Assembly: GCF_963576545.1 (NCBI RefSeq)
Contig: NC_083647.1
Location: 4,879,507 to 4,943,506 of the forward strand
Direction: 5' to 3'
DNA: 64,000 bases
Origin: Limanda limanda
Taxonomy: Eukaryota > Chordata > Actinopteri > Pleuronectiformes > Pleuronectidae
In this document: in pieces, positions 26,778 through 59,188 of the stretch
Layout of the letters: the number at the start of each line of letters is the position of its first letter
Position numbering within the stretch: the stretch's first letter is position 1
Translations under genes and position numbers: made by a program
The notes under the pieces: model-generated
What the model saw: only the letters and a program-made list of their open reading frames with translations
Database searches by the model: none
Told to the model about the DNA's origin: nothing

Positions 26778-26889
26778 GTAAGAAAATTCACCTTCACCTG
26801 CTGCAACACACTGCCTGTGGAGAGAAAAGACGGGAAAAAGACGGCACGGAGCGGCGTGACGCAGCAACGCTGGTGAAGCTTTAACAACG

Positions 26890-28830
26890 ATGGCTGAGAT
26901 GGATGACATTAAGGAACAGATGCAGAAACTACGGATCAAAATAGAGGAAAGTCGTGGCTTATTACTTCAAGCTGAGACTGAAGGTTGGTCACTCAAGGAA
27001 ATAAAGGAGGACATTGAAAGTAAAGAAGAAGAGCTAGCTGAGCTTCAAGTTGAAATGGATGATGCTAATGGATTACCCCGCCGATCAGAGCGTCCTAGTG
27101 CACCCACAGAAAAAATGCTCATCTATCAGAAGGAGGAATCAAGTAAAAAGGAAAAAAGACTGCTTAGCCTCTATGAGCAATGGAAAATGCTCATGAGAAA
27201 GTCCAAACAAAGCTTGAAGAGCAACATATCGGACGCAGAGTTGGCTACACTGGCAGAAAACATTGAAAAGGGAATGAAGGACATCATCAAAGTGTACAGT
27301 GAACTGAGGGTGCATGACACACCAGCCAATGAACTGAGATGTAAGATGGACTCATGTGAAGCCGTGACTAATGACATGTTGAAAGTCATTTATGAACGTT
27401 TATCAGAACTAGACGGTGAATTTGATGCAGACTTCCAAAGGCAGCGTCTTCATCAGCTACACGCAAATAACTATGCTTACTCTGTATATGGAAGCGCTTC
27501 ACTGTCAGGTGCCAGTCTCCGCTCTGAAACTGCTAGCATTGCAGCAAAGAGAGTTGATGCAGCTGCAGAACTAGCTGCAAAGGAAGCTCAATACCAAGTG
27601 ATGCAAGTTGAATTAAAACAGAAGGATAAAATAAGAACAATGGAAGAGCAATTGAGCATGCAGAGGTCTGAATTGGAGCGTCTACAGGCAGAAAAGGAGA
27701 TGGAGGCTGCTCGTGCCAGACTGATGATCTACGACAGAGAAATGAGAAGGGAACCAGATGTTCAGCCCTCCCAGCAAAGCAACAGAGCAAGCAGTTACAT
27801 CCCCTCTGATCACCAGCAGAACCCTCACATTGTTGCACCAGCACCTCAGACTGACGTATCTCAATTGGCCCAAGCAATCCAAGAGAGCACCGCATTAAAC
27901 AGACTCCCAATGCCGATGCCCACAGTGTTTGATGGAGAACCAATTCTCTATATCGAATGGAGGGCTTCATTCATGTCACTCATCGACCGCAAAGGCATCT
28001 CTTCAGCTGATAAACTTCATTTTTTAAAGAAATATGTCACGGGCTCAGCACACAAATGCCTTGAAGGCACCTTTTTCCGCAGTGATGATGAAGCATACGG
28101 AGATGCATGGAAAAAGCTAGACCAACGCTATGGCCAGCCATTTCTAGTCCAAAGAGCTTTCAGGGAGAAGCTGTCAAAATGGCCGAAAATAAATTCCAAG
28201 GACGCTGAAGGGTTAAGGTCATTCTCAGACTTCTTAAACGCCTGCCTGCAAGCCATGCCACATATAAAGGGTCTAGAAATATTAAATGACTGTGAAGAAA
28301 ACCAAAAGTTGATACAGAAAGTCCCTGATTGGTTAGCAGCCCGGTGGAATCGTAAGGTCACAGTCAAGCTAATGGAAGGAAAAGATTTTCCTCCCTTTGA
28401 AGACTTTGCTAACTTTGTGAACATGGAAGCAGAGATAGCATGCAACCCAGTCACTTCTCTACATGCTCTTCACTCATCTAACACACTCCATGACAGAGAA
28501 TTCAACAAGGAAATAAGAGGAAAAAAAGCCAAGGTCCTCACTATGCAAACCATCACAAGCAGCAATGAAGCAGGAGCAAACAGCGTAAGATCCAAACCCC
28601 CCTGCATGTGTTGCAAAGATGACAAGCATCAGTTGCCAAGCTGCCCAAACTTCACGAAGAAGTCTCTGAAGGAGCGACGATCATATGTGATGGAGTATAA
28701 GCTGTGCTTTGGATGTATGAAACCAGGTCACAACGCAAGGGAATGTCGTCACCGGCACACATGTGACGTATGTAAGAGAAAACACCCTACAGGGCACACA
28801 CAGGTGGAGAGGGGACTGAATGCAGTTTGA
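26890..28830 (+). CDS. gag: BEL/Pao Gag polyprotein
   Basis: Open frame of 646 codons starting ATGGCTGAGATGG, 112 bp after the 5' LTR. Gag packages the element RNA into cytoplasmic particles. Residues 1-60 and about 225-290 are rich in Glu, Lys and Leu and probably form coiled coils. From about residue 335 runs a DUF1759-like region (PMPTVFDGEP, then YIEWRASF and LDQRYGQP). The C-terminus carries Cys/His clusters, CMCC at about 570 and CFGCMKPGHNAREC at about 605, which are zinc-knuckle-like nucleic-acid-binding motifs. The frame is intact and stops with TGA at 28,828-28,830. The protease region continues at once in the -1 frame, so expression of pol would need -1 frameshifting or this is one of several indels. 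Confidence 0.9.
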   Translation: MAEMDDIKEQMQKLRIKIEESRGLLLQAETEGWSLKEIKEDIESKEEELAELQVEMDDANGLPRRSERPSAPTEKMLIYQKEESSKKEKRLLSLYEQWKMLMRKSKQSLKSNISDAELATLAENIEKGMKDIIKVYSELRVHDTPANELRCKMDSCEAVTNDMLKVIYERLSELDGEFDADFQRQRLHQLHANNYAYSVYGSASLSGASLRSETASIAAKRVDAAAELAAKEAQYQVMQVELKQKDKIRTMEEQLSMQRSELERLQAEKEMEAARARLMIYDREMRREPDVQPSQQSNRASSYIPSDHQQNPHIVAPAPQTDVSQLAQAIQESTALNRLPMPMPTVFDGEPILYIEWRASFMSLIDRKGISSADKLHFLKKYVTGSAHKCLEGTFFRSDDEAYGDAWKKLDQRYGQPFLVQRAFREKLSKWPKINSKDAEGLRSFSDFLNACLQAMPHIKGLEILNDCEENQKLIQKVPDWLAARWNRKVTVKLMEGKDFPPFEDFANFVNMEAEIACNPVTSLHALHSSNTLHDREFNKEIRGKKAKVLTMQTITSSNEAGANSVRSKPPCMCCKDDKHQLPSCPNFTKKSLKERRSYVMEYKLCFGCMKPGHNARECRHRHTCDVCKRKHPTGHTQVERGLNAV

Positions 28831-31800
28831 ACACAGCTCCAAACACGGCTAATGATACCAGAGTGGTAACAGCACTTAATGTCACTAGAGGGAGCCAGTC
28901 AGACATCACCTCCATGATCGTCCCAGTGTGGGTGTCCACAGCCAAAAACCCATCTAAGGAGCAGCTTGTGTATGCATTGTTAGACACTCAAAGTGACAGC
29001 ACCTTCATCGATGAAGAATTAAGCAATGAGTTACAAGCAGATGCCTACCCTGTGAAACTGAAACTGACCACTATGCTTGGAGAAAACACCATTGTGAACA
29101 GTCAAAGAGTAATTGGACTGCGTGTAAGAGGCTACAATTCAAGCTCTCACATTGATCTTCCTCCTTCATACAGTAAAAACCACATTCCAGTGAACCGTAA
29201 TCATATACCAACGCATAACAGCAAAGCAATGGTCTCATCTAGAGGGAATCGTCGATGAAATGCCACCTCTCCTTGATTGTGATATAGGACTTCTGATCGG
29301 ATACAACTGTCCAAGAACATTAGCGCCCAGACAGGTGTTATCTGGAAATGATAACGAGCCCTATGCCATTCTTACAGATTTAGGTTGGAGCATTGTTGGA
29401 GGTTCAACCCCATGCCTGGATGAAACAGAATCCAGCCTGTGTCACAGAGCCAGTGTAAAGGAACTTCCTCCAGTAACACCAATGGATATTGTAAGCATCC
29501 TGGAGTCAGACTTTAAGGACACAAAAGGAGAAGACAAGACTGTGTCACAAGAGGATCTCATATTCCTTGAGAAACTGAAAGGAACCATAAGGAAAAATGA
29601 CAAGGGACATTATGAGATGCCTCTGCCATTCAAGCAACGGCCACACTTACCTTATAACAAAAAGCTTGCTGAAATCCGACTGAGTCATCTAAAACGAAAA
29701 TTCGACAAGGATGAGAAATACAAGAAAGACTACACAACATACATGAACGAAATCGAGAGGTGATATCGAGGAGATAAACAACGACGGAACTCAAGGTGAG
29801 CGATGGTATATTCCCCATCATGGCATTTACCAGCCAAAAAAGCCAACTAAACTGCGTGTTGTGTTTGACTGCTCAGCGAAGTACAATGGCACAAGCCTAA
29901 ACGAACATCTTCTTCCGGGACCAGATTTGATCAATAATCTAACTGGCATCCTCATAAGATTCAGACAGCACCCCATCGCTCTAATGTGTGACATAGAAAA
30001 AATGTTTCATCAGTTTCATGTCCAGGAGGATGACCGCAACTACCTGCGTTTCCTGTGGTGGAGAGATGGAGATGTGAACACAAAACCCCAGGAATACAGG
30101 ATGAAAGTACATCTGTTTGGTGCAGTTTCATCCCCTGGCTGTGCAAATTACGGGCTTAAATACCTGGCCAAAGAAAACAGCCACTCTCATCCAGTAGGAT
30201 CCCTGTTTATCACAAAGGATTTTTATGTGGATGATGGGGTCACAAGCACAGACACTATTGAGAAAGCAATCCAGTTGGCAGATGAGGCAAGGGAGATATG
30301 CTCCAAAGGTGGTCTCCGCCTTCACAAATTTATGTCAAACAGCCATGTTGTCCTACAAAGCCTCCCTGCATCAGAATGTGCAATAGATACAAAGACCAAA
30401 GACCTGAGGTTCACTGACATGCCACAAGAACGAGCGTTAGGGATTCTCTGGAGCATAGAGAAGGATAGCTTCAGATTTAGCAACACCATGAAAGATCAAC
30501 CAGCAACACGAAGAGGTGTTTTGTCTACTGTGGCCTCCATATATGATCCTCTGGGCTTTCTAGCACCATATGTCCTCACTGGAAAGAAAATCCTCCAGGA
30601 AATGTGTCGTCAAGGTACCGGCTGGGATGACCCCCTGCCTGAAGTCCTGAAGCCAAGGTGGGAGAACTGGCAACGTGACTTTGCCAACTTGGTGAACATA
30701 AACATAGCTCGATGTTACCTACCTGCTGATTTTGGAGAAGTTATTGAAACGGAGTTACACCACTTCTCAGATGCGAGCACCAGTGGATATGGTCAGTGCA
30801 CTTATCTTAGGGCCAAGAACCCGAAAGGAGTGATTCACTGTTCTCTAGTTATAGCAAAAGTTCGTGTTTCTCCAACAAAGTTGACCTCCATACCAAGACT
30901 TGAGTTAACTGCAGCAGTGGTTTCAGTCACAGTCAGCAATATGCTAAAGGAAGAGTTGTGTTATGCTAATTGCAAGGAGTATTTCTGGACAGACTCAAAG
31001 GTGGTTTTGGGGTACATAACGAATGATGCACGTCGCTTTTTACACCTTTGTAGCCAACCGAATCCAGAAAATTCGCAGCACAACGAGCCCAGAGCAATGG
31101 GCTTACGTCCCCTCAGAGGAGAATCCAGCAGACATTGCATCCCGAGGAAGCACTGTAAATGAGCTGATCTCATCTAATTGGTTCACTGGCCCCATGTTCC
31201 TCTGGGAACCAGAATTACCAACACCAAAGGATATGATGCTGGATCTGTCCATAGGAGATCCAGAAGTCAGAAAGGCACAAACACTGCTGACAAAAACCAC
31301 AGAAACAAAGAGTCTTGGAGATCATCTTTCCAAGTGTTCTTCATGGTCCAAATGCACCAAGGCTGTGGCCCGCCTTCAACGGCGAGCAAAGAAGGTCAGA
31401 TCACATGCTCCAGCCTCAGTGAGTGAACAGGAATGTGCTGAACATTTTATACTTCAGAATGTGCAAAGCGAGGCCTATGAGAAGGAAATAAAGCTGTTGA
31501 GAAAAGGAAGTGAACTGCCACATCACAACAAGCTGCACCGGCTTGATCTATTTCTTGACACAGATGGGCTTCTCAAGGTGGGAGGAAGACTCTGCCATTC
31601 AACTTTCTCTGACTCTTTCAAGCACCCGATCGTCATTCCCAAAGAGCATCATGTGACATCACTAATAATAGCTCACTGCCACGAAAGAGTAAAGCATCAG
31701 GGAAAAGGTTTCACCATGAACGACATCAGATCCAGTGGCTATTGGATTCCTGGTATGAGTAGAGCAGTTTCATCATTCCTCCGTCAATGTGTGACTTGTC

Positions 31801-32813
31801 GCAGACTCAGGAGACCACCAGAGACCCAAAGAATGAGTGACCTACCTGTGGAACGTGTAGAGCCTTCAACGCCCTTCACGTATTGTGGAATGGACTGCTT
31901 TGGACCTTTTGTGACCACAGAGGGAAGGAAACATCACAAAAGATATGGTCTGCTTTTTACCTGTTTTTGTTCACGAGCCATTCACATTGAAATGTTAGAG
32001 GATCTGTCTACTGATGGCTTTATCAACGGCTTGAGATGCTTCATTGCCGTTCGAGGTGCAGTTCGTCAAATTCGCTGTGACCAAGGCACGAACTTTGTTG
32101 GGGCACAGAATGAGTTCAAAGCAGCTTTGAAGGAACTTGATACTCAGCGACTCAGAATGTTTTTGTCAGAAAAGCAGTGTGACTTTGTCATGAATGCCCC
32201 CCACTCCAGTCATGCAGGTGGCGTATGGGAACGCCAAATAAGGACAGTCAGGAGTGTTCTGAATGCCACTCTTTTAATCGCCAAAGACAGACTCAACGAC
32301 GCTTCTCTACGGACCCTATTCTACGAAGCCATAGTCAACAGTCGACCCCTCACTGTGGATAATTTGAACAGTCCTAACAGCCTGGAACCATTGACCCCAA
32401 ATCATCTTCTTCAAATGAAATCCAGCACAGCACTGCCTCCACCTGGCACATTCCCCAGACAGGACCTGTATGGAGCAAAAATATGGCGTCGTGTGCAGTT
32501 CCTGGCAGAGCAGTTCTGGAGTCGCTGGAGACAGGAATATCTTCACAACATCATCACTAGGCAGCGTTGGCACACTCCAAGAAGAAATCTTCAAGTTGGA
32601 GATATTGTGATGGACGTTGATGTATTGTTGCCTAGAGGTGAATGGAGACTTGCCAGGGTTTTAGAGACTGTCAGTGGAAAAGATGGGCTTGTGAGGAAGG
32701 TGAAAATCTCAGTGGGAGATAAGAATTTGAGCGTTAAGGGTGAACGCTCTGGTGGACTTTCTGTGTTGGAGCGTCCAGTGCAGAAGTTGGTTCTACTGTT
32801 GGAATCTACTTGA
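28827..32813 (+). pseudogene. pol: BEL/Pao Pol, frameshifted (protease-RT-RNase H-integrase)
   Basis: Four consecutive open segments in shifting frames make up pol. 28,827-29,258 has the aspartic protease motif LLDTQSDSTF. 29,260-29,763 carries LLIGYNCPRTLAPRQV and the linker to RT. 29,861-31,162 has VVFDCSAKYNG, the RT active site FYVDDGVTS and the RNase H block HFSDAS. 31,023-32,813 has the integrase zinc region (HH...CVTCRR), the catalytic core starting GMDCFGPF and a DUF5641-like C-terminus (NLQVGDIVMDVD). Frame changes fall near 29,225, 29,755 and 31,036 (a T run). Each break looks like a small indel, with protein similarity continuing on both sides. In an element with identical LTRs these may be sequencing errors or fresh mutations. 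Confidence 0.88.
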
Positions 32814-34269: not shown

Positions 34270-36960
34270 CTCTGTTTCCATCCTTAATTGGAGTTTATTT
34301 TGCCACTCCCACTGTTTACGTTCCGCCGTTCCCTAAACTCTATCTCCTCCACAGTCTCCTCCCAAGCCAGTGGATGTTAGCTCCGTACCCTAAGTTATCA
34401 CCAATTCCGGGAGGTGTTCAGTAAGGACCATGCTCCATCCCTTCCCCCTCACAGACCTTATGACTGCGGGATTGAGCTTCTCCAGAATGTTCCGTATGCT
34501 TCCAGCAAACTTTATAATTTATCCAAACCAGAACGAATCGCCATGGAGACGTACATTACTGATTCCGTGGCCTTTGGTCTCATTCGGCCATCGTCATCTC
34601 CATTGGGGGCGGGGTTTTTCTTTGTGGAGAAGAAGGACAAGTCACTGCGTCCCTGTATTGAATTTCGGGGGCTCAATGACATTACTGTTAAGAACAAGTA
34701 CCCCCTCCCTCTCATTGACTCTGCTTTTGGTCCCCTTCATGAGGCCACTATTTTTACTAAGTTGGATCTCCGGAACGCTTACCACTTAGTGAGGATTAGG
34801 GAGGGGGACGAGTGGAAGACGGGGTTCAACACTCCCCTGCGTCATTTCGAATACCTGGTGATGCCCTTTGGCCTCAACAATGCCCCTGCTGTTTTTCAAA
34901 ACCTGATTAATGACGTGTTAAGGGACATGCTTAACTGATTTGTGTTTGTTTATTTAGATGATATTTAGATTTTCTCCCGTAACCACCAGGAGCACGTGCA
35001 ACATGTTAAGTCAGTGCTCAAGAGACTCCTGGAGAACAGGTTATATGTTGAGGCGGAGAAGTGTGATTTTCATGTATTGTCTGTTAGTTTTTTGGGTTTC
35101 CGTGTGGAGAAGGGCCAAATCAAGACCGACCCTGCTAAGGTTAAGGCAGTGGCCGAATGGCCCACTCCTACATCAAGGAAGCAACTTCAGAGGTTTCTCG
35201 GGTTTGCCAATTTCTACCGCAGGTTTATCCTGGACTATAGTAGAGTTGCCACACCTCTGACGAAGCTGACTTCGGTTAAGATTCCTTTTGTGTGGTCATC
35301 TGCAGCCGAGGGTGCTTTTGCTAGACTTAAGTTGTTGTTTTTATCTGCACCTGTTCCCCTGACCCTGCTTTACAGTTCATTGTGGAGGTGGATTCCTCTG
35401 ACTCTGGGTAGGGGGCCGTGCTTTCGCAGCGCACCACCACCGACCTTTAGCAGCACCCGTGTGCCTTTTTCTCCCGCCAGCTCTCACCGGCGGAGAGAAA
35501 TTATGACTTTGGGAACCGAGAGCTGCCGGCCGGTTGTCCTGGCTCTGCAGGAGTGGAGCCACTGGCTTGAGGGATCCACTCATCCGTTCATTGTATGGTC
35601 TGATCATAAGAACCTGTCTTATTTCCGTTCTGCTCGTAGGCTCAACTCTTGCCAGGCCCGGTGGGCACTTTTCCTGGGGCGTTTCCAATTCACGCTCACC
35701 TACCGGCCGGGATCCTAGAACATCAAAACGGACGCGCTGTCACGTCAGTTTGCTCTCCCTATGGAGGACACGTCTGGAAGCACCATCCTGCCATCCGCCT
35801 GCGTGGTTGGAGCAGCTGGGTGGGAGATCGAGGGTGTGGTCCAGGGGGCACAGAGGGACCAGCCGGTTGCACAAGGCTGTCCACCGGACAGGTTGTTTGT
35901 TCCCGAGGTGGTTAGATCCCCAGTCCTTCAATGGGGACACGCCTCTCGGATCGCCTGCCATCCTGGTTTTCGTCGGACTCTGGCTCTTCTTCAACAACGG
36001 TTCTGGTGGCCTTCCATGGCGGTCGATACCAGGGGATTCATCGCGGCCTGTTCTGTCTGCGCCCGAAGTAAAGCATCACATCAAGCTCCTGCCAGTTTAC
36101 TGCATCCTCTACCCATCCCTCATCGCCCGTGGTCACATGTGGCGGTGGACTTCATCACTGGCTTACCTCCCTCTGAAGGCAACACGGTGATTCTTACCGC
36201 GTGGACAGATTCTCCAAGGCAGCTCACTTCATCCCATTACCCAAGTTACCTTCCGCCTTGGAGACCGCCAACCTTCTGGTCACACACACCTTCCGTTTAC
36301 ATGGCATCCCGGTGGACATCGTCTCGGACAGGGGTTTGCAGTTCTCCGCGACATGGAAGGCGTCGGCCAGCCTTTCATCTGGTTACCATCCTCAGTCCAA
36401 CGGCCAGACAGAACGGGCAAACCAGGATCTGGGGGCGGCTCTGCGTTGTGTTACAGCCCCACATCCGGCTTCCTGGGCCACACACCTCTCCTGGATTGAA
36501 TACGCTCACAACTCCCTGGTCAGCTCCGCCACAGGTATGTCTCCTTTCATGGCTACTAATGGGTTCCAACCTCCTCTCTTCCCATCCCAGGAAGCTGACG
36601 TGGCAGTGCCATCCGTGGAGGAGCATCTTCAGCGTGCTCGTCGGGTCTGGCGCGAGGCCCTGGCAGCCCTCGTCCGCACAGCGGCTCGCAGTCAGCGAGT
36701 GGCTGACCGTCACCGCACCCCTGCTCCTGACTACCAGCCTGGACAGATGGTCTGGTTATCATCCCGGGATCTGCCTCTCCAGACCGAATCCCGGAAATTG
36801 ACACCAAGGTACATTGGTCCATTCGAGATCGACCGGATCATAAATCCTTGTGCAGTGAGACTGAAACTCCCCCTGTCGTTGAAGATTCATCCCACATTCC
36901 AGAGGAGAGACAATGGGTTTCACGTTGCCTTATTTTGGACGCATCTATCCTCGATGATTT
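34270..36960 (+). pseudogene. pol: Ty3/gypsy Pol remnant (RT, RNase H, integrase)
   Basis: The RT region (34,414-34,978) has [38 protein letters not shown] and YLDDI; two in-frame stops (34,936 and just after YLDDI) flank the active site. The RT tail follows ([25 protein letters not shown], 35,090-35,235). RNase H is scattered over frames from about 35,380 to 35,740 ([17 protein letters not shown] then a stop). Integrase shows the HPG zinc region (about 35,960), CSVCARSK (about 36,053), [17 protein letters not shown] (from about 36,203) and [16 protein letters not shown] (from about 36,378), ending in a chromodomain-type linker region. Several residues appear to be missing before SGYHPQ compared with typical fish gypsy integrases. 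Confidence 0.85.
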
Positions 36961-37014
36961 TTATGCTCGTTGACAGGCCGGGCCCTGCAGGTGGCGTCCC
37001 CTGAGGGGGGGTAC

Positions 37015-43855: not shown

Positions 43856-45714
43856 CTTTTAGTTGTGAGAACACTCATTGATTCTAACCCTCACCCTAAA
43901 ACCAGGTCTTAGCTCTCAAACAACCCATTGAATTTGTGAGGACCAGACAAAATGTCCTCACAATGATATTGAATCAAAATTGACCCTCATAAAGAGCAAC
44001 CTTAAATTCACCCCCTGTACAGCCCATGTTGTAACCTATTGGAGAGGGGCCTATCATTCATACCACACTGTTGAGGTACAAAGATGAACTTTGCCTAAAA
44101 AACTTCAAGTCCCATGATGCACCAACAGCAGGCCAGTGCAGGCTGCTCATTACGACTTAAGTTGGAACACCTGCGAGTGGAAGGGAACTCTCAGCAAACA
44201 TCTCAGCAGAGGGAGAGAGGCAGGAGAGAGGATTAAGCTTATGGTACAACCAAAGAAACCACTAGTACTGTAACAAGACTTTTATTTTGATGATTATTCA
44301 ATATTGGAAGTGGTGCTATCCTCATTAAAGTTAGGATGTCTTGTTTGACGATTGGTAAATAATAATCAGGCAGCATGCATTTAAGTTTGGCTTTTTGTTT
44401 AAATGTACTTAGTTGTTTGTTCAATTTATATAGAGGTTTGAATACGGTTTACATTCATTCATTTATGTACACTGTAAAAAACATGTACTTTATTTGTTTG
44501 ATTGAAGTTGTATACATTTTTTTTGCATATTTGTAATATTTTGTAAATTAAGATTGAGTTGTCCCGTGCTTCCTTTGGGTTCATGTACCAGGCCATTGCA
44601 GATTGGGCAAGAGTTGAAGAAAAAACCTAGGAACAAACCGAAAAGGAAATACAGGATCAGGCCCCAAGTAGTAAAAATCTAGGAGTCTACTAAACTGTTA
44701 AAGCATAAATGTGTGAACTTTAAAACCAGAAATAGAAGTGTGGTTCAGCACTTCAGACAGGCTGCTGATGAAGAGAATCACTGTTGGCCTATTATTTCTC
44801 GAAGAATGTAATGTCTGTGGAGCATCTGTTTTTTTGTTTCTCTTTATATGCATTTTAAAAACACATCAGATTTGGACAGGTTTATAGTATTTATTTTGAT
44901 ATAGTCATAGATATACTTTGTGTGAAATGACCCCACGTAATGAAGCATACTTCAAATTGGCCATGAGAAATGCAAGATATCTTAATATCCGAGAAGACAT
45001 GATGTTATTACTTATTAAGAAGTATTTCTTCAACTTTTTTCATTTATATGTATAAAGTGTATCATGGCTAATTCATACAGATACCTGTCTGGCTGCATCA
45101 GATGCTGAGAGGATGACACTGTTATTATCTGATAAATAATGCATTCCCTCTGTAGCTACTTTTAGTCCTTGAATATGGCACCAGCTGTGGCTGCTCTAAA
45201 TAAATTCTCAATTCAAACAAACAGTCAAGAAGAAATATGCACCTATACACTGTGAAGACGGTACATATCAAAAGTTTTTCTGTTTGTGCGAATGAATGAA
45301 TGAATAGTTGTTTTTTATTATCTCTGTCGTTCTCTCTGGGACTGTTCTCCGGAGGTAAAGAGGACGAGATTAAACAGGTAACTCCGCCGCACAGGAAAGG
45401 ATCCAAAGACTTAAGTGGAAATCCCTGTGACATCCAAAACATTGCATGAAGTGAAACGGTGCGGCTTTGGACCTCTTCTTTGAAACTGATATTTTTATTG
45501 CAATAATTTCAATAGTCTAGGTCAAGTCTTTTGGCTGGAACACAGATAAGTCTTTGCCAGTGTTAGGACACACTTTAATTTTTTATTTTGGCTCTGTTCT
45601 GTTTAGCTGGGATAAAAAATGATGAGATGCCTATGAGTGAAATCCACAAAACACCACTTGACACTGAGGTGTCCCGCTTACTTATAAGGTATAACCTTAC
45701 ACCTTACCTTACAT

Positions 45715-49150: not shown

Positions 49151-49154
49151 ATTA

Positions 49155-49340
49155 CACTGTAAAAAGCCCAACTTCAAAAGCATTGGTCTAACTTATTTTT
49201 AAAAGTTGAGTGAGCAAATTTTTTTTTTAAATGTTGGGCAAACCCAAAGTTTCAAGTTTACAAATAAGTAGTGCAGTCAACTGAACATTTTAAGTTGAGG
49301 AAACTTCAAATATTGCTTAGCCAGCTCCGGGATGCAACTA
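49155..49340 (+). repeat. Left terminal and subterminal repeat zone
   Basis: The terminal CACTGTAAAAA is followed by CCAACTTC, AAAGTTGAGTGAG (about 49,200), GTCAACTGAAC (about 49,277) and TAAGTTGAGG (about 49,292). The spacing is irregular and both orientations occur. AGCCAGCTCC with ATGCAAC near 49,320-49,338 has a loose counterpart in the right end (GTTGCAGCTGGTT). Confidence 0.7.
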
Positions 49341-49504
49341 TAAGTTCAGATTGAATGATATGAATGCATTTATATATGGAATATATCTACTTAGATATGT
49401 ATATATAAACACACACACACAAACAAACATATATACATATATACATATGTGAACATATATATTTATGTCTTGTATTATTATTATACACATTTACACACAC
49501 ATAT

Positions 49505-49506
<2 letters not shown>

Positions 49507-49546
<40 letters not shown>
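49507..49546. repeat. (AT)n microsatellite
   Basis: About 40 bp of pure TA repeats inside the left part of the transposon. Confidence 0.9.
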
Positions 49547-49547
<1 letters not shown>

Positions 49548-49689
49548 CATGTTCAGATTTCTTTATTTAGATGTTCAGCCCCGTAACGCCGGGATCACAC
49601 CGACGCAGAAGCCACATTACTAAATGTCCCCCTTTGCCCATCCACTGCAGCCACAAGCAGTGATAAAGATAAAAAGAGAGAGTGGGGGC

Positions 49690-49727
49690 TACGTATTCTC
49701 CACATAGGCTTGAGTGGAGAATACGTA
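49690..49727. repeat. Perfect 14-bp hairpin upstream of the transposon promoter
   Basis: TACGTATTCTCCAC (49,690-49,703), a 10-base loop, and its exact reverse complement (49,714-49,727). Confidence 0.8.
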
Positions 49728-49859
49728 ATTTACCCTCGACAGCCGACATTTAACGGAGCAAACAGCGGAGAAGTTCTTAAACATGGATGACATTAAATTA
49801 ATAATTGAAGTGGAGAAGTGCAGTGAAAAAAAAGACTAATGTTGGGACAATGTTGGTTA

Positions 49860-50000
49860 ATGTTGGAGCAAGCGCTGCACGGCGCTTCAGCGTGGCTTCC
49901 GCGTCCGGAGGGCGACGTCATGACGTAGTCAGTGTCACTGCGCACTCGTGTTTAGAGAAGCCAGCGCTCTCAGGTAGAGTGGGCTTGTCCGGACAAGTTG
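49860..50000 (+). promoter_or_regulatory. CpG-rich putative promoter of the transposon
   Basis: A CpG-dense block (CTGCACGGCGCTTC, TCCGCGTCCGGAGG) with the palindrome-like GACGTCATGACGT at 49,914-49,926, which holds two CRE/ATF half sites. There is no TATA box. It lies just upstream of the repeat-bearing leader with the splice donor at 50,233. Assigned by position and composition only. Confidence 0.5.
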
Positions 50001-50232
50001 GGTGTAGTTGATCAGATGCACGTCCTTCTATCGCAAGTTTCGCCGCCTGTTATCCTCCGACCGGAAGTTTCGCCGCTTGATATCCTCCAACCGCAAGTTT
50101 TCTCGCCTGGTGTCCTCCGACCGCAAGTTTTGCCGCTTGATATCCTCCGACAGCAAGTTTTGTCGCCTGGTGTCCTCCGACCGCATGTCCTACGGCTGCG
50201 TGTCCTCCTCACTTTCTTCCAGCACTAACTAG
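50000..50232 (+). other. Putative shared leader exon ending at donor AG/GTAAGA
   Basis: The segment ends AACTAG/GTAAGACT, a strong donor (GT at 50,233-50,234). The first downstream acceptors with a start codon close behind them are 52,421-52,422 (gene A) and 55,406-55,407 (gene B). The exon start is not visible. A 74-codon frame (50,008-50,232) runs through the repeats and stops right at the donor; it could be translated, but the repeats alone would keep frames open. Maize Spm is known to have a GC-rich, repeat-containing untranslated first exon; the resemblance is an inference. Confidence 0.5.
50032..50211 (+). repeat. 30-bp tandem repeat in the leader (about six units)
   Basis: Units of the form CGCAAGTTT-CGCCGCCTG-TATCCTCCGAC recur exactly every 30 bases from 50,032; five are clear and a sixth (50,182-50,211) is degenerate. 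Units alternate between a TTGATATCC and a CTGGTGTCC version. A 30-base period keeps a 10-residue frame (SSDRKF-RL-). Confidence 0.85.
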
Positions 50233-50321
50233 GTAAGACTCCCGCCGCTGTTTTACTGGTTATTCTGCGACCCGTTGTCTTTCTAATGCAAAGATTCACA
50301 ACGTTTGCAAAACTACATGTG

Positions 50322-50510
50322 TAAGCTATCCATATAATCTACCTGTTAGCTACCCGTGAAAACCACGTGCTGGCTAGCTTTAAGCTACCCGTGAAAGCCA
50401 CATGTTTGCTAACTTTCAGCTACATGTGCAAACCACGTGCTGCCTAACTTTAAGCTACCCGTGAAAGCCACATGTTTGCTAACTTTAAGCTATCTGTAGA
50501 CCAACCCCAC
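50322..50510 (+). repeat. Roughly 38-bp tandem repeat in the leader intron
   Basis: AGCTACCCGTGAAA, CCACATGTTTGCTAACTTT and variants alternate about four to five times. Confidence 0.75.
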
Positions 50511-51040
50511 CCAAACCACCGTGCTACGTTTATAAACTAACAACGTGTTAAGTTGAGTTATCAATAAAATAATGGTAAATTTTGATGATCTTCTCCTTGT
50601 GTATACTGGGGTATGTGTCGTCCGTTGGTGTCTTTTCTGTTTGAATCTTAGCATAACAGTGAATTTAACAATTAAGCTTTCATACAGAGCTCGTTCACGT
50701 GTTATTTATTTCAAAATAACTACTTATTTCATACATTTCCCACAAATATGGGGAAATGTAACTCAAATAGCCCTACATAGTTCTGTGTTTAATTTATTTC
50801 AAAGTACACCTACACTTGCCTCTGTATTTTTCTTCTCTTCATACGAGTTTGGTGTTTTCCTTTGTAACAGGTAAAAATAGCTATAAAAGTCAACAGTTCT
50901 TTATTGTTCTATAACTCATAAATGCAACAAAACAGTTTAGTATCAGTGTTAATTTTGGCAGCTATTTTTGATTTAGTCTTAGTCTTTTGACGAAAATGCA
51001 TATTAGTTTTAGTCTAGTTTTAGTCATTTTTATCCTTCTT

Positions 51041-51155
51041 AGTTTTAGTCGACGAAAACAAATTACATTTTAGTCTAGTTTTAGTCGACGAAAACAAATT
51101 ACATTTTAGTCTAGTTTTAGTCGACGAAAACAAATTACATTTTAGTCTAGTTTTA
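51041..51155 (+). repeat. 36-bp tandem repeat, three units, inside hAT A
   Basis: AGTTTTAGTCGACGAAAACA recurs at 51,041, 51,077 and 51,113, with a partial fourth unit at 51,149. Confidence 0.9.
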
Positions 51156-51296
51156 GTCACATTTAATAGCCACATTAAACTCCTTATCTTCCCTTCTCAG
51201 GTCCAGGGACCCCCTGTGTTGTGTCTACAACTGCGTACTAGTCTAGCTTGCAGTACTTAGGTTGTCCATTAGATGTCCCTCTTATAGGTCTATAGC

Positions 51297-51690
51297 AGGG
51301 GTCGGCAACCTTTACTATCAAAAGAGCCATTTGGCCCCCTCTTCCCCCAAATAAAATTTGTCTGGAGCCGCAAAACATATTTGATAACAAAGCTGATAAA
51401 ATTTTATATAAAGTTATACTATACTAATCTGTAGATTATTGCATTTATGAACAACAATAAAGAAAACTGTTGACATTTTATTTATTTTTACCTGTTACAA
51501 CAAAGGGAAACACCAAATGCTTATGAAGAGGAGAAGAAAATACACAGGCAAGTGTAGACCTACTTTGAAATAAATTAAACGCAGAACTATGTAGGGTTAT
51601 TTGAGTCATCCCCATATTTGTGGGAAATGTATGAAATAAGAAGTACCCTATTTTGAAATAAATAAAAACATATAGCTGCAGCCTATATAT
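51297..51690 (+). mobile_element. Second copy of hAT element B, nested inside hAT A
   Basis: Begins CAGGGGTCGGCAACCTTTAC and follows, in the opposite orientation, the same sequence as 52,348-52,237 plus 50,935-50,698. The similar region ends near 51,690 and no right terminus is found. With the outer copy it forms a long imperfect inverted repeat (about 50,698-50,935 against 51,440-51,690). Confidence 0.7.
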
Positions 51691-52420
51691 TTTAGTTGGC
51701 GAAATGTGAAAACAAAAAGTGCAAGCAGATCAGAGCGGAGGAGGAAACTGAAGCTCGGTAGAAACCAACTGCAGCCTCTGCTCTGATCCAGAAGCTGCAG
51801 CGCTGATCTCAGAGCAGCTGAGACCAGAGAAACTCTGTGTTTTCACTGTTTCCATAGTTAAGAAGCAGCCGGGGAGTCAGTGACCGGCCTGCTTCACATG
51901 AACAAGCTCTGATCTCACTGTCTCTCTGAGCGAGTGCGCGGGGGCGGAGCCTCGGGACCGGTGCGCTGTCTGGCAGCACACGCACACACACACAGACACA
52001 CACACTCGCCGCTCCGGGTACTTCATGACGGCCTGATACGATTATGTTTTTAAAAATTGTTGTGACTTAGTCAACCGCCAACATTTTCGTCTCGTTAACG
52101 AAAATAAAATAGATTTCGTCATAGTTTTTATTTTCAAAGATCCATTTCGTTACGTCTTCGTCTCGTCTTAGTCATGGGAAAAGGGGCGTTAACGAATTTT
52201 TTCGTTATCGTCAACGAAATTAACACTGTTTAGTATAGTATAACTTTATTAGCTTTCTTATCAAATATGTTTCTCAGCTCCAGACAAATTTTATTTGGGC
52301 GAAGAGGGGGCAAAATGGTTCTTTTGATGTAAAGGTTGCCTACCTCTGCCTCAGCCAAATTGAGTTTGTTCATTTGGGTGGTGTTAAACTCATAAACTAA
52401 ATGTGTTTTCTTTGTTTCAC

Positions 52421-52422
52421 AG
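52421..52422 (+). promoter_or_regulatory. Splice acceptor just before the gene A start codon
   Basis: CTTTGTTTCACAG/GATTTGGATG: the AG lies seven bases before the ATG at 52,430. The frame is open a little further upstream but without an ATG, which supports this start. Confidence 0.65.
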
Positions 52423-52429
52423 GATTTGG

Positions 52430-55090
52430 ATGCAGTGTAAGGAGTGCAAGTTCTCGCACCCTAATCAGGATATTCTCCTCAAGCATTACCGACTTTGCCA
52501 CTACCGGGGACGCTTCTGGCCACTGCCGTGCCTGTACACTGACTGCTGCTGCACTTTCAAAACAAGCGGTGGGTTAAAATGCCACCTTTCAAGAGTACAC
52601 ACAAAGTCCAGAAAAACTGAAGTAGAAGTCACCTTTTTTTGTCAATTGTGTGACTTTAAAGACATCTGTGCCCCAAAGAAATACATAGCCCATCTAAAGA
52701 CTCATTTGAGGCAGCATGTGACTGTTTATTGTCCTTTCAAAGACTGTGAATTCACAAGTACTGTGCTTTCAACCTTCAGTAGTCATATAAGCAGGAGGCA
52801 TAAATCCTACAACCTTACTGATTTCCGAGCATCTGTAACATCCTCAACACCTCAACCATCTAATCCATCAGAACAAGAGGAAGAATTTCCACCTGAGATC
52901 AATGTTCAACAGCATCCTTCGGAGGCAGAGAGCCGCTCATACGTAGAACCTGCAGAAAGTTCTACAGTTGAACACAAACTTGCATCCTTATTTCTCTACA
53001 TGCAAACTGTTTTACATATTTCTAAAAGTGCAACTCAGCAAATTATAAGTGGTTTTACTGATGTTGTGTCACTCTCCAAATTTACAGCCAAGCAATCAAT
53101 CAGAGACGTTCTTAAAACCTTTCCAAGTTGTACTGATGAGTCTGTTGCAGAAGAACTAACAGAGCGCATTTCAGACTTAATATACAACACTAACCCTTAT
53201 CTTCTGGCAACATCAGAAAAGGGCGTTCTCTCAACAGAATATCGAAGGATTAAATATTATAAAGAACATTTTAAAGTTATTGATCCTGTTGAGTATCTTT
53301 ACGATAGACAACATCAGAACACTTTTGTGTATGTTTCATTGTTTGAAGTCCTTGAAGTTTTGCTCAACAGACCAGATGTCTTAGAAAAAGTGGTTTTTGA
53401 CGACGACTGCCTACCCGGACAATATAGATCTTTTCGGAATGGGCACTATTACAAACTGAACAAACTTTTAGGTGGCCAGAGAAACTGCATTTCGCTAGGT
53501 CTTTACATAGATGACTTGGAAGTCTGTAATCCACTAGGTACTTCAAGGAAAATACACAAGATAACAGCAGTATACTGGGTGCTCCAAAACTTACCTGCTA
53601 AATTCCGTTCAACTCTTCCATCAATACAACTTGCGCTGCTTGGGAAAAGTGTTGACGTGAAAGAATTTGGGTTTGAAAAATTTTTCACTCCACTTCTCAA
53701 GGATATAGGCCGTATAGAGCAAGAAGGTGTATTTGTCAAATCCCTTAATTCACATGTAAGGGGAACAGTTCTCTGTGTATGTGCTGACAACCTTGGAGCT
53801 CATGGTTTAGCGGGTTTCCAAGAAAGCTTTATAGTGGACAATCTTTGCAGGTTTTGCCTTGTCAACAAAAAGGATATACAGACTAAATCTAGCAGCCACT
53901 TTGAGTTGAGAACTGTTGAGCAACACAACTCTACTGTAGCTGAGTTAATGGAGACTGGCGTTAAAAGTGTTCTTGGTGTCAAAGCTGAATGTGTCCTAAG
54001 TAAACACCTGTCTTACTTTCATCCTATTACTGGATTCCCACCAGATATTCTCCATGACTTATTTGAAGGAATTGTCCCTTTTGAGTTATCTATTTGTCTG
54101 AAAGAACTGATCTCAAGAAGTTACTTTAGTCTTGATATTCTCAACAGCCGCATTAGTAATTTCCCATATAAGGACTCTGACAAAGTAAACAGGCCCCAAA
54201 GAATATCCAAGGCCAGCTTTTCAAAGGCAATAATAGGTGGGAATGGGCATGAGAATTGGACTTTGCTGCGGCTACTGCCCTTAATGATTGGTAATCTTGT
54301 ACCAGAGAATGAAGCCTCTTGGGAGATCTTGATGGACCTGAAAGAGATAGTTGAGTTGATTGCATCAGCATACTTTTCAGATGCCATCTTGGCTTTCCTT
54401 GAAAGGAAGATTACTGACCACAGGGAGTTGTTCAGAGAAACCTTTCCGGACCTGAGATTAAGACCAAAACACCACTTTGTGGAGCACTATCCCCACTTGA
54501 TTCGATGCTTTGGTCCATTAATAGACTTATGGACCATGAGATTTGAGGCCAAGCACAGTTCTTTCAAAAAGATTGTGCATGATGTCCACAACTTCAAAAA
54601 TATTCTCCTCACACTTGCAAACAAGCACCAGCTAACAATGGCCCATTACCTAGATGGTCCAAGCCTCTTTTCACCTCCCTTGTCAGTGCAAAATATTAAA
54701 ACAGTTAGCTCATTTAGCTTGGACATCCCACAGAGGAGTGCAGTAAAAAACAAATACCCGCACCTCTCAGTGTTGTCCCTTGCTTCAGATGTACATTTGC
54801 ATGGAACCCGCTACAGTGAAGGCATGGTTTTGTGTGCAGGGGAATGCAGTGGCTTACCAGAGTTCTTGAAACTTGTTAATATTATTGTTCATTCCCAAAG
54901 TAACACGGTTTCCTTCTTGTGCAGGAAGCTTTCTTCGTGGTATATTCAACATCTAAGGTGTTACGAGGTGTCTGAAAATGCTGACCTAGAAATAGTTGAG
55001 CCAGAAGACCTGAATGATAACACTCCCCTAACGTCTTATGCTGTCGGGGGAAAGATAATCATCTCCCTGAAGAGGTTCCTCCTTCACTGA
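52430..55090 (+). CDS. Transposase with C2H2 zinc fingers (CACTA/EnSpm-like), 886 aa
   Basis: Predicted to recognise the element ends and to cut and paste them in the nucleus. Four C2H2-type zinc fingers occupy residues 1-130: MQCKECKF..., CLYTDCCCTF...CHLSRVH, FCQLCDF...HLKTH and YCPFKDCEF...HISRRH. An acidic, Pro/Ser-rich linker follows. The catalytic core shows YIDDLEVCNPLG (first Asp about 361), CVCADNLGAHG (second Asp about 453), CRFC (473-476, the C(2)C motif between the second Asp and the Glu) and PPDILHDLFEG (His 542, Glu 546). Further on is MRFEAKHSSFKK. This pattern fits CMC-group DDE transposases; assigning each residue to catalysis is an inference. The frame is intact and one exon long. 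The start is the first ATG after an acceptor. Many teleost genomes hold uncharacterised paralogues. Confidence 0.78.
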   Translation: MQCKECKFSHPNQDILLKHYRLCHYRGRFWPLPCLYTDCCCTFKTSGGLKCHLSRVHTKSRKTEVEVTFFCQLCDFKDICAPKKYIAHLKTHLRQHVTVYCPFKDCEFTSTVLSTFSSHISRRHKSYNLTDFRASVTSSTPQPSNPSEQEEEFPPEINVQQHPSEAESRSYVEPAESSTVEHKLASLFLYMQTVLHISKSATQQIISGFTDVVSLSKFTAKQSIRDVLKTFPSCTDESVAEELTERISDLIYNTNPYLLATSEKGVLSTEYRRIKYYKEHFKVIDPVEYLYDRQHQNTFVYVSLFEVLEVLLNRPDVLEKVVFDDDCLPGQYRSFRNGHYYKLNKLLGGQRNCISLGLYIDDLEVCNPLGTSRKIHKITAVYWVLQNLPAKFRSTLPSIQLALLGKSVDVKEFGFEKFFTPLLKDIGRIEQEGVFVKSLNSHVRGTVLCVCADNLGAHGLAGFQESFIVDNLCRFCLVNKKDIQTKSSSHFELRTVEQHNSTVAELMETGVKSVLGVKAECVLSKHLSYFHPITGFPPDILHDLFEGIVPFELSICLKELISRSYFSLDILNSRISNFPYKDSDKVNRPQRISKASFSKAIIGGNGHENWTLLRLLPLMIGNLVPENEASWEILMDLKEIVELIASAYFSDAILAFLERKITDHRELFRETFPDLRLRPKHHFVEHYPHLIRCFGPLIDLWTMRFEAKHSSFKKIVHDVHNFKNILLTLANKHQLTMAHYLDGPSLFSPPLSVQNIKTVSSFSLDIPQRSAVKNKYPHLSVLSLASDVHLHGTRYSEGMVLCAGECSGLPEFLKLVNIIVHSQSNTVSFLCRKLSSWYIQHLRCYEVSENADLEIVEPEDLNDNTPLTSYAVGGKIIISLKRFLLH

Positions 55091-55407
55091 AAGCTAGATT
55101 TTGGGACCAATTGTAGTTGTGTTTGAAATGCTGGTTCAGATGTACAAAGGAAACACTGTGTTCTAAACAGTTATGTGCAAAAACTACCTTATTTGATATT
55201 CTTTATGTGTATTTTGAAATATAAATTGATAAATTATGATATTGGGTTGCCCCAAATGTCAGTTGTTCAAAACAAAAGCAAAGATGTGTATGTATATGGT
55301 CCCGGTGAAGTCACTGGAGACACATTCTAAGGTGTTAAAGACATGCTCAGAACTGTCCTGTGTATTTTGTGACCTTGCTATGGCGTTCTTATACGTTTTT
55401 TTTTCAG
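55091..55407 (+). other. Spacer between genes A and B, ending in a splice acceptor
   Basis: 317 bp without AATAAA or ATTAAA; one TATAAA variant lies at about 55,221. It ends CGTTTTTTTTTCAG (AG at 55,406-55,407), and the ATG of gene B follows four bases later. I see no clear promoter. Lack of a normal poly(A) signal for gene A and a ready acceptor for gene B argue that both are spliced from one pre-mRNA. Confidence 0.55.
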
Positions 55408-55410
55408 ATC

Positions 55411-57995
55411 ATGCTGCTACGTGTTGTCATTTCCCCTGATAACATCAGAAGATTGGATATTTCAGAAGACCTCGAGTCTCTCGAACAATTGAAGGGGATT
55501 CTTACAGAAAGACTTCAACTCGAAGGCGACTTTTTAATTCAGTTCGAGGACCCTGACTTTGGAAATGAACTGTGTAATTTGACAGACATTAGAGAGCTTC
55601 CTCCAGAAAGAGCTGTATTGAAGATCCTGAAATCCTTCATCCCAACAGAATCACCGGCTTCTACCTCTACCTTTTCTGGACTGGATTCTGATAGCATGTC
55701 ATCTCCATCCACCAGTGCAGCCCAGGGTTCGTCCGTACAGCTTAGGCGGCGTGAGAGTGCAGAGAACTGGCCATCTCCATTCCCAATTCCAGTCTTTTCA
55801 TTTGATGTTGCACTGAGGCTTTCTAACGGGGATGCTTTGTTCAAGGAAAGTGGAGTACTTCTCACTGTACCAAGGGAAATGAAAATGGACATCCTGGACA
55901 ACCTAGCTCAGGCAATGTTTTCCTACAAGGCCTACCCAAAGACTCAAGAAATTGAATCAGTTGCTGCTGCACTTATTGAGAAACACCCATCTCTTGCTGA
56001 CCCAGGAGTTGGAACTGGATTTCACAGCTGGGCCATGAGCATTAGATATAAGCTTGGCAACTACCGCCAAAAGCTACGGATGGCAGGCTGTAATGAAGTC
56101 CGGGTTAACCAAAGAAAAAATGCAGAGGTGACCAGGTGTCTAAAGAAAGCCAGAAGGTGTGAAGTGAACTTTCTTCCAGACAATCCTGAAGGGCAGACTG
56201 ACGAATCACAAGAGAGGGAAAGGAAATTAATACAGGAGGAAGTTCTGAAAAGACTTCCAAACAAGACCCTGATCGAATCGAAAATGGAAGCTACTTTTTC
56301 CCTACGCAGGAAGGGTATTGTGGAGGAAGAACCGCCTATTGCTGATGTGTTGGAGAAGTGGCCAGCATTGTTTTTGGAAGAACAGGTAAGATTTATTTTT
56401 TTTATAATGTGTAATGTCCTGAATGCTCTACAAATTCCACCATTCTGCTCAGCTTCCGGATGTAGCAAACCCTTTTAGTTTATAACTACAATGTGGGCAC
56501 CTTCTGTAATTGGAGTCTGTATTAACACTAATACTGTTATTTCTCCTCTCTTAGATATATGCTGAGTTTTTTAGAATCACTCAAGTGGATCTAAAGAAGA
56601 CCTTCTTGACATCTTTGGATGCACACGCCTCAAACCTGATAAAGCTTTATAGAACACGTAGCGGGACACAAGGAAAGGACTTAAAGGCCCTCCTTGACAA
56701 CCTTGATGAACAGGTAATGCAAGTAGGAGATAAATTAAGGTTTTCTGAGAGTGCATTTTCACATTGCAAACAGACATTAACATAAATTGTGAATAGGTGT
56801 GGTGTGATTTTATTTTCAGGCCATGGTATATTTTTTTTAACTTTATTTGTGTCTTTCAGACAACCGATGTGCTTGCACAAAGGAAGGCCACAGCTCTACG
56901 AGGTCTACCTCTCTATTTGAGGGAGAATCCAGGCAACGTCCTGAAGACATGTCTGGTAAGAATACTTCGGTTTATACCATTGAAGTTTTTTTCTTCCATT
57001 TTTTTTAATAGCTGGGCCAATATAAATATACAAGGGGCCAGTACATCTCTGATTAGGGAGCAAAAACATTCATTTGATAGTAATATGCAATAAAACAACT
57101 TATTTATATTCCCTTTAATGTAATATAAGTAATTATCCCTAATTAAGGCTGAAATCTTTAACAATAAAAGTAAAAACCCATTATCAAGAGGTAATCTATG
57201 AGGGTTGACCTAAAAAAAAACTTAAATCAGTAAATTTTGCTGCAAGTCTTTGTGTTTGGATTGTGGCCGATTTTATATGCACTGTCAGGGTGAGATATTG
57301 TCCATCCTTTTTGGATTGTTAACACTTATGGAATCAAAGGATTATCCCACACCTTTTAAACTGCACACCAGCAGAATTTTATGAGCACCTTTAGAAAAAA
57401 ATGCCAGATTTCGCACAAATTATCCCTTCACATGGATTAACTGATGACATCTGGGTGGTCAAAATTAATCTGGTGGCCTTACAAAATGTATTTTTTAATG
57501 TATCTTAAATTTGTCGTTAGGAAATTTCTTCATATTTTGAACAGTGGTCACTTGCACTCAAAGTTTAACTCATAAAGGCGCATGTCACTTTACTCATGGG
57601 CAGGGGCATATAATTTATTTATAAATGTGGTGATGAAAACATTAAAAATTTAAGTAATGTCTGTTTGTTTTCTCTAGGATACAGACTCGGAGGAAACGTC
57701 CGTTGCAGGTGTTCAACTTGGCATAGTCACCATTGTTGAAGATGATGTTGGGAGAGCTCACTCAATGCCCAGAACAGTCAACATTGCCCTTGTCATCGAG
57801 GAAAAGGTCGTTGTGGATAACATCTCTGACATCAGTACAGCCATTGTACTTCTCTTTGGATGCATCTACAACCTCAACCTGGACTACCCCAAAGGATTGA
57901 AGTACACTTTTGAGGCCCTTCAAAAGATTTTTATGAACCTTGGCACAGAGTGTTCTGCCCGTGTTCAGGCTCTGAAAAACAACTTGTTAAAGTAG
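55411..57995 (+). CDS. SAMD3-like accessory protein of the transposon, 515 aa in four coding exons
   Basis: Exons 55,411-56,385, 56,555-56,713, 56,860-56,955 and 57,678-57,995 join in phase 0 at every junction, with GTAAG/GTAATG donors and CTCTTAG, CTTTCAG and CTCTAG acceptors. Residues 1-75 (LLRVVISPDNIRRLDI... FEDPDFGNELCNLTDI) look like a small beta-grasp (PB1 or ubiquitin-like) domain. A Ser-rich linker follows, then the segment WPSPFPIPVFSFDVALRL and a Lys/Arg-rich region of about 120 residues that may bind DNA (GNYRQKLRMAGCNEV). The C-terminus contains VVLL-type IVLLFGCIYNLNLDYPKGLK. Teleost proteins with this architecture are often named sterile alpha motif domain-containing protein 3-like, though I see no SAM domain here. 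Its molecular function is unknown. Its place inside the element suggests an accessory (end-binding or regulatory) role. Confidence 0.7.
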
Positions 57996-58154
57996 CCCAA
58001 TACCATGACACAAGTTCTTAAGTTCAGTGATAACTACACAAGTTTGTGTAGTTTGTGTATTTTTTTATAAACCTCTGCACAGATTGCTCTGCCTGTGTTC
58101 AGGCGCTGAAAAAAAACTTGTTAAAGAAGCCTGCCACCATGAACACTTGCGCAC

Positions 58155-58510
58155 ATAGACATGTCACTTTATTCCTCAAAATATGTTTTTAAGTTCAGTA
58201 GTAGCCACACAAATCACATGTTCCCATTTGAAGTTAGTGTTTACTAACTGCTGGATTTGTTTATCTCTGCAACTAAACACGTTTGTGTCTTGTTACACGT
58301 TTTTATGGATGCGCTTTCTATAGACATGTCACTTTATTCCTCAAAATGTTTTTAAGTTCAGTAGTAGCTACACAAGTTTGTGTAGTGTTGCTACGAATCC
58401 CATGTTCCCATTGGAAGTTAGTGTTTACTAAGTGCTGGATTTGGTTATCTACATCTCCTAACATGTTTGTGTCTTGTTACATATTTTTTTTATGGATGCA
58501 CTTTCTTCAC
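58155..58510 (+). repeat. Tandem duplication (about 165-190 bp) in the gene B 3' UTR
   Basis: ATAGACATGTCACTTTATTC starts at 58,155 and again at 58,320. The following TTCAGTAGTAGC, GTTCCCATT, TTTACTAA-TGCTGGATTTG and TTTTATGGATGC strings recur in the same order. Just upstream, the end of the coding exon (about 57,950-58,000) is also duplicated at 58,085-58,130 without an open frame. Confidence 0.85.
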
Positions 58511-58766
58511 TGCTGGGTTTGGCCAGTGGTTTCCTCAAGTATCTGACTAACACATGTTTTGTGATTCATAGTGTCATCATACTGTTTTCTATATTATAGC
58601 TAAAGTATTGAGAGCTGGTTCTGCACTTTGTTATGTGTTTACATATCTATCTTTGAAAATAATTGTATAATGATACCAAGTTCACTTAAGTATCGCTGCT
58701 GCTGCAATTTCAATGTTGCCTTTTTTGTAGTTATTGGATGTATATAATGTTAACCCCTGTGTTCTT

Positions 58767-58772
58767 AATAAA
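58767..58772 (+). terminator. Poly(A) signal AATAAA of the transposon transcript(s)
   Basis: TTCTTAATAAACAG lies about 770 bp after the gene B stop and is the first AATAAA I see on this strand after gene A. It may serve both mRNAs. Confidence 0.55.
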
Positions 58773-58824
58773 CAGATTATTTATAGAATTTTGCTGTTAT
58801 TATTGAATTTCCACAACAGTATGA

Positions 58825-59186
58825 ATAGAGTAAACTTGAGTTAGCTCAACTCATGGGCAGCAAAGTTGAGTTAACTAAGCATTTCAAGTTTAAGCTTAAG
58901 TTCTCTCGACTGAAACTATCCAGTTCTGTTGATGTATGTTTTCAAATCATTAGCATGCATATAATCTAGTATTCCTAACTTGTAGATTTGAGTAGCTCTG
59001 AATGGAGATGTTAAGTTAGTCTAACAGAACATCACCATTCAAAGCTACTCTATATAACATTTTGAGTGAACTTAATTATTTAATTTGACACAACTCACAA
59101 GCCCTTAAGTTAGGTCAACTCAAAAAAGCGTTGCAGCTGGTTGCTTTACTTTTTTAAGTTGAGTCAACTTTTCTTTTTTTACAGTG
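58825..59186 (+). repeat. Right terminal and subterminal repeat zone
   Basis: Many AAGTTGA, ACTTGAGTTAG, GTTGAGTTAAC, TCAACTC and AAGTTGAGTCAACTT copies (a 15-bp palindrome-like unit at about 59,156-59,170) lead to the terminal ACAGTG. This zone is denser in motifs than the left end. Confidence 0.75.
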
Positions 59187-59188
59187 TA

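Follow-up and report, generated by a model that had tools for sequence, protein, structure and literature searches.

A CACTA-type transposon of the common dab with a transposase of predicted RAG1/Transib fold and a SAMD3-related partner

Fish genomes commonly contain CACTA elements, and to our knowledge little is known of how those of animals work. Subterminal repeats are a feature of maize En/Spm as well, and the Transib/RAG1 group is recognized by CACWATG ends and a 5-bp duplication. In the available portions of a report on the Schistosoma element SmTRC1 (PMC1636069), a single maize Spm unit is described as yielding tnpA and tnpD by alternative splicing, with the TnpD message carrying two open reading frames (ORFs) in tandem; SmTRC1, an animal CACTA element, is likewise alternatively spliced; according to its authors the transposase has a relative in Danio, and its accessory proteins are reported there as not detectable in other animals. 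Here we describe an element of about 10 kb from Limanda limanda (common dab, a flatfish) whose partner protein, in contrast, is conserved across fishes. It occupies positions 49155–59186 of the 64,000-nucleotide stretch of contig NC_083647.1 that was analyzed, which we refer to as the window.

We read this element, at a probability of roughly 0.8, as a CACTA-type transposon with two genes, A for a transposase of predicted RAG1/Transib fold and B for a SAMD3-related protein with a predicted PB1 domain, both of which would arise by alternative splicing from a single promoter and would cooperate in cut-and-paste transposition. The reading draws on the observed ends, flanking TA dinucleotides, repeat clusters, reading frames, catalytic residues, A–B linkage and homology of B to SAMD3; the folds are predicted, and from here we infer transcription and mechanism. 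An earlier note on this DNA had proposed a two-gene CACTA-type element with a zinc-finger transposase and a SAMD3-like partner, and the ends, frames and homology support that proposal. Animal CACTA elements, the Danio relative and alternative splicing are known already (PMC1636069, as far as available). The conserved second gene and its kinship with SAMD3 are new relative to the searched literature: among the matches listed from open-licence papers, available in part, none describes the A–B pairing, reports that vertebrate CACTA elements have a conserved second gene or relates SAMD3 to transposons, and a fish EnSpm consensus with two genes may well be filed in Repbase Reports. With its conserved pair of proteins, one of them with a catalytic core predicted to resemble that of RAG1, the element would offer a testable vertebrate system beside RAG1/RAG2.

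Ends and subterminal repeats

The element is bounded by 11-bp terminal inverted repeats, CACTGTAAAAA on the left (49155–49165, + strand) and TTTTTACAGTG on the right (59176–59186, − strand), and when re-read from the sequence these repeats, the TA on both sides and the coordinates reported in the earlier note proved exact. The TA dinucleotides (49153–49154 and 59187–59188) are what a 2-bp target-site duplication would leave, a presumption based on a single copy; the duplications of EnSpm/CACTA elements are 2–3 bp long. Shuffling sets the ends apart from chance: the window has four copies of CACTGTAAAAA, whereas 100 shuffles average 0.11, and three copies of TACACTGTAAAAA, which is CACTGTAAAAA with TA in front, whereas 100 shuffles give none; in each case two of the copies are the element's own ends. 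With its CACTG..CAGTG termini, the element has the inverted ends, starting CACTA or CACTG, by which EnSpm/CACTA elements are recognized.

Clustered subterminal repeats, another mark of EnSpm/CACTA elements, are also present. The core AAGTT/AACTT occurs 8 times in the left subterminal region (49155–49404) and 9 times in the right (58837–59186), so that the terminal 250 + 350 bp hold 17 copies against 4.3 (standard deviation 1.9) in shuffled ends, a count that 0 of 1000 shuffles reach. Of 215 stretches, each of 250 bp, that lie outside the element, none attains the left end's 8 (maximum 4), and the core is still moderately dense deeper inside, at 3–4 per 200 bp in 49900–50100 and 57900–58500. 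Clusters of the longer motif AAGTTGA/TCAACTT had been claimed previously; this holds for the terminal regions, with 5 copies where shuffled ends have 0.25 (none of 1000 shuffles reaches 5), but not for the window as a whole, where 18 copies compare with 18.8 expected.

Two further matches lie outside the element. An exact TACACTGTAAAAA at 44468–44480 (+ strand) has GAAGTTG about 35 bases further in and no right-hand partner end nearby within the window, and is perhaps the stub of a related element. The other, an exact CACTGTAAAAA at 6556–6566 (+ strand), lacks the TA in front, and no partner end stands near it among the listed near-matches. A blastn search for further copies in the window using both ends (E 0.01, low-complexity masking) returned only self-matches and one short inverted piece inside the right end.

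The transposase and its SAMD3-related partner

Gene A (52430–55090, + strand) is a single uninterrupted coding exon for an 886-aa transposase with four conserved C2H2 fingers (aa 3–124), a predicted RAG1/Transib-fold core (about aa 175–745) and a possibly BAH-like C-terminus (about aa 749–882). All catalytic and zinc residues are present, and the D-D-E triad has C(2)C and H(3)H between the second D and the E, in agreement with the C(2)C/H(3–4)H motif that is described as common to all CMCT elements in the available portions of PMC12730594. The predicted A model finds its best fold matches, among the rows listed, in RAG1 and Transib, over about 455 residues, and it is this model that provides the likeness in core fold. 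A differs from RAG1/Transib in its four N-terminal fingers and putatively BAH-like C-terminus, and the element differs in its CACTG ends and in having B in place of RAG2. With its residues observed and its fold predicted, A likely cuts and joins DNA; its DDE site would cut next to CACTG and insert the element at TA.

The CMCT motifs are shared with Plavaka and ESTA, and the element might belong to another CMCT lineage (Plavaka, ESTA, Mirage or Transib) rather than to EnSpm/CACTA proper, which we regard as unlikely. Pfam Plavaka scores, weakly, in 4 of the 28 members of the A family, TA flanks are found in ESTA as well (PMC12730594, as far as available), and no CACTA transposase structure is among the rows listed beside RAG1 and Transib. 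The CACTG ends and subterminal clusters, however, fit CACTA, and Pfam Transposase_21 (tnp2) scores in 5 of the 28 members at E ≤ 0.01, the window's A not included. Plavaka ends, given as TGT..ACA or CATCA..TGATG in the available portions of the same paper, are unlike those found here, and a TET/JBP gene was not noticed, no dedicated search for one having been made. As for Transib, the element begins with CACTGTA and its flanks show no 5-bp match.

Gene B follows on the same strand in four coding exons (55411–56385, 56555–56713, 56860–56955 and, with the stop, 57678–57995, all + strand). Two uninterrupted genes had been described; A is one, but B has three introns and an open frame only once spliced, of 515 codons. 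The spliced protein is identical to Limanda limanda entry P0121 (100% over 515 aa); the cluster of that entry represents 4 sequences from 2 contigs, which may hint at a second copy. The N-terminus of B has a predicted PB1 fold, the protein is acidic or neutral apart from one short basic linker, and it contains a conserved KKxRR-type motif. Across 41 B members, Pfam (E ≤ 0.1) finds PB1 in 5 and DUF4936 in 2, with ten further families matched by a single member each, including a BfiI DNA-binding domain (E 0.0026) and an SplA regulator (E 0.019). Searched against the PDB by sequence, the B profile returns two rows (E 0.48 and 0.97), and Foldseek of the B model gives no PDB match below E 0.001, PB1 and ubiquitin-like folds topping the list, and no viral match below 0.001. 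Scans of viral contigs (22 pattern matches for A, 140 for B) and of genome contigs (10 for A) revealed no relative of either gene.

The earlier note had by implication likened B to the end-binding protein of plant elements. We set aside B as a TNPA-like end-binder: the window's B matches no Pfam family, its N-terminus is predicted to fold as PB1 and the protein, one short basic linker excepted, is acidic or neutral, and it is A that holds four fingers. The fingers of A are better candidates than B for reading the AAGTT-rich ends, and would bind the AAGTT-rich subterminal repeats; DNA binding by B is possible, the single BfiI and SplA matches being hints in that direction. B would serve as a helper or regulator that assembles with itself in the nucleus; it might enter the nucleus through its KKxRR-type motif, polymerize head to tail via PB1 and, once polymerized, either cluster A on both ends or tune the amount of active A. 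Two B proteins, Merluccius P0177 and Labeo P0207 (tetraspanin domain, precomputed Pfam column), have a long extra stretch, which is an artefact or a fusion.

The pairing was also expected to recur elsewhere, and apart from the window seven loci have A linked to B. In five of them an A row and a B row share contig size and source in both listings: Astyanax mexicanus (AMEX_G5760 for A, G5761 for B), Danio aesculapii (LOC130247306, isoform X1 for A and X3 for B), Merluccius polli (128,893-base contig), a jgi contig of 6,447 bases and an lgn contig of 4,863 bases. The other two are Coilia gene models running from A into B; a coincidence in Sarotherodon (46.9-Mb contig) was left out of the count, the A–B distance not being known. 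As the loci come from the best 120 rows of each list, those without a listed partner carry no information. Both genes are matched by 7 of the 240 listed proteins (two from Coilia, and those of Notolabrus, Serrasalmus, Pelmatolapia, Metynnis and Hoplias), and in all 7 of these spanning gene models, from which the order is known, A precedes B, although five hold only part of A. Across 8 loci, window included, the distances in A and in B correlate with r 0.93 (0.90 with the Hoplias fragment), and 0 of 20,000 permutations reach either value. Host descent alone could cause such a correlation; the two Coilia loci, however, differ by 46% in A and 42–43% in B, as far apart as loci of different fishes, so the A/B distances are not those of a species tree.

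The alignments show common descent of B and SAMD3. BLASTP of B against platypus SAMD3 gives E 2e-17, and profile–profile comparison gives a probability of 99.2% and E 1e-19 over 354 aligned columns. Amniote SAMD3, a host gene that is not known to lie within a transposon, has an N-terminal SAM domain in 115 of 120 listed entries (precomputed Pfam), followed by the region homologous to B; the SAMD3 entries are the named ones in a search baited with a human sequence. No SAM domain is among the families listed for the 41 B members, and in the window's B a PB1 fold is predicted at that place. One alternative is that A alone is a transposon gene and B a host SAMD3-like gene that adjoins the insertion or was picked up once. 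B proteins are indeed named after, and homologous to, the host gene, but this explanation is very improbable: B sits inside both ends in the window, is linked to A in the seven other loci and diverges in step with it, always follows A in the spanning models, and has a SAM domain in none of its 120 listed rows against the 115 of 120 for SAMD3.

The SAM module where B has a predicted PB1 makes domestication an attractive reading, one that we hold tentatively and at somewhat less than even odds. SAMD3 would then be a domesticated CACTA-transposon partner in which PB1 was swapped for SAM, and vertebrates would have tamed both halves of RAG1-fold transposons: RAG1 would derive from Transib, and SAMD3 from the second gene of a CACTA element with the RAG1 fold. 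A quick tree, built without an outgroup from 40 B proteins (out of 80 in one alignment) and 15 proteins of the SAMD3 search (out of 120 listed), places SAMD3 on one very long branch. The program cautions that long branches may be drawn together, and the tree leaves the order of host and transposon undecided. The finding raises a concrete origin for SAMD3, and suggests that transposons encode many of the fish proteins now recorded as SAMD3 or SAMD3-like. A carp study, in the portion available, lists single-nucleotide polymorphisms in a gene called Samd3 (PMC8945855).

Transcription and splicing of the two genes

Transcription would start in the CpG-rich left part of the element, where the observed/expected CpG ratio is 1.0–1.2 (49700–50299) and where 30-bp tandem repeats, the unit holding CAAGTTT, lie at 50032–50185 upstream of the putative exon-1 donor. 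An untranslated first exon would end at this consensus-like 5′ splice site (AG/GTAAGA, 50233–50238, + strand) and be joined from 50233 either to 52423, for the A message, or to 55408, for the B message. The candidate acceptors are TCACAG (52417–52422, + strand), 7 bases before the ATG of A, and TTTCAG (55402–55407, + strand), 3 bases before that of B; 35-bp tandem repeats with AACTTTA in the unit (50348–50492) would fall inside intron 1. Both messages would use the AATAAA at 58767–58772 (+ strand), the sole AATAAA/ATTAAA between the stop of B and the right end. The stretch from the stop of A to the start of B has none, two ATTAAA are inside the A frame (53249 and 54695), and introns and the upstream part have others, including those at 50563, 57089 and 57163.

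A and B are likely produced from one promoter via alternative splicing, a reading favoured by the candidate splice sites and by the names of the Danio isoforms, A and B being X1 and X3 of one gene. Nine B entries lose their match near the window's exon-1 boundary, as is expected of an unspliced genomic reading. On this sequence-level evidence, the arrangement of the transcription unit looks the same as that of maize Spm. CACT-type ends and a transposase plus a second protein are common to both, and one alternatively spliced unit would be (PMC1636069, as far as available); the element differs by its CACTG ends, its TA flanks, the four C2H2 fingers of A itself, and a B that is SAMD3-related, with predicted PB1 and without a transposon family in Pfam, TNPA itself not having been compared.

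It is unlikely that A and B instead come from two promoters, or that B is translated off a two-gene message. The lgn contig of 4,863 bases, with A (872 aa) and an uninterrupted B (529 aa) together taking up about 4.2 kb, fits either a message of both genes after splicing or a gene that lacks introns, and in the former case would suit this alternative, as would the tandem two-ORF messages described for SmTRC1 clone B4 and Spm TnpD (PMC1636069, as far as available). The acceptor-like TTTCAG just before the ATG of B, and a single Danio gene with A and B as separate isoforms, speak for alternative splicing.

Several observations weigh against the reading of a two-protein CACTA element spliced from one promoter. 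The case is known from one DNA copy by sequence alone. Searched against the PDB by sequence (E ≤ 1), the A profile yields 55 rows, zinc-finger chains only, with no RAG1 or Transib among them; the window's A stays under the Pfam Plavaka cut-off (15.9 against 26.3 bits) and has no Transposase_21 match, while Pfam finds no family, PB1 included, in the window's B, so that PB1 rests on the model. Compared with their neighbours, the DNA-contact positions are slightly more variable in three of the four fingers and less so in the fourth, a pattern that makes binding of the repeats by the fingers a guess. The Danio isoforms are database models, of which the A isoform X1 ends before the BAH-like part, and the lgn contig could be the intronless gene.

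State of the copy and other elements in the window

The copy had been described as looking intact. This appears to be so for the frames (886 and 515 open codons) and for the catalytic and zinc residues, all of which are present, but the putative first intron contains a nested insertion of 1,285 bp (50944–52228) with ends CAGTGTTAATTT and an 8-bp direct duplication TTTAGTAT (50936–50943 and 52229–52236), which is hAT-like by the length of its duplication; before this insertion the element would have measured about 8.7 kb. The nested insertion, and the lack of a second copy in the window by blastn of the ends, would suit a copy that is old and no longer moves, its frames kept open by chance or host use. 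We consider this doubtful, as both frames are open, the catalytic and zinc residues are complete, the 11-bp ends are exact and TA is present on both sides.

Interlocked inverted copies are found in and around the nested insertion (50702–52349), with arms at 50702–50943/51421–51665 and 51295–51410/52234–52349, as if the insert carried an inverted copy of its own landing sequence. At the 3′ end of gene B, a duplicated stretch (57928–58506, + strand) includes 81 bp from within the last exon repeated at a distance of 134, with repeats of about 165–190 bp behind it.

Retrotransposon sequences occur elsewhere in the window. Frames of a BEL/Pao-type LTR (long terminal repeat) retrotransposon lie at 26860–32813 (+ strand), with Pfam matches to Peptidase_A17 (3e-47), DUF1759, DUF5641 and Integrase_H2C2, and fragments of a Ty3-type retrotransposon lie at 34969–37004 (+ strand) in several overlapping frames, with RT_RNaseH and SH3_Tf2-1.

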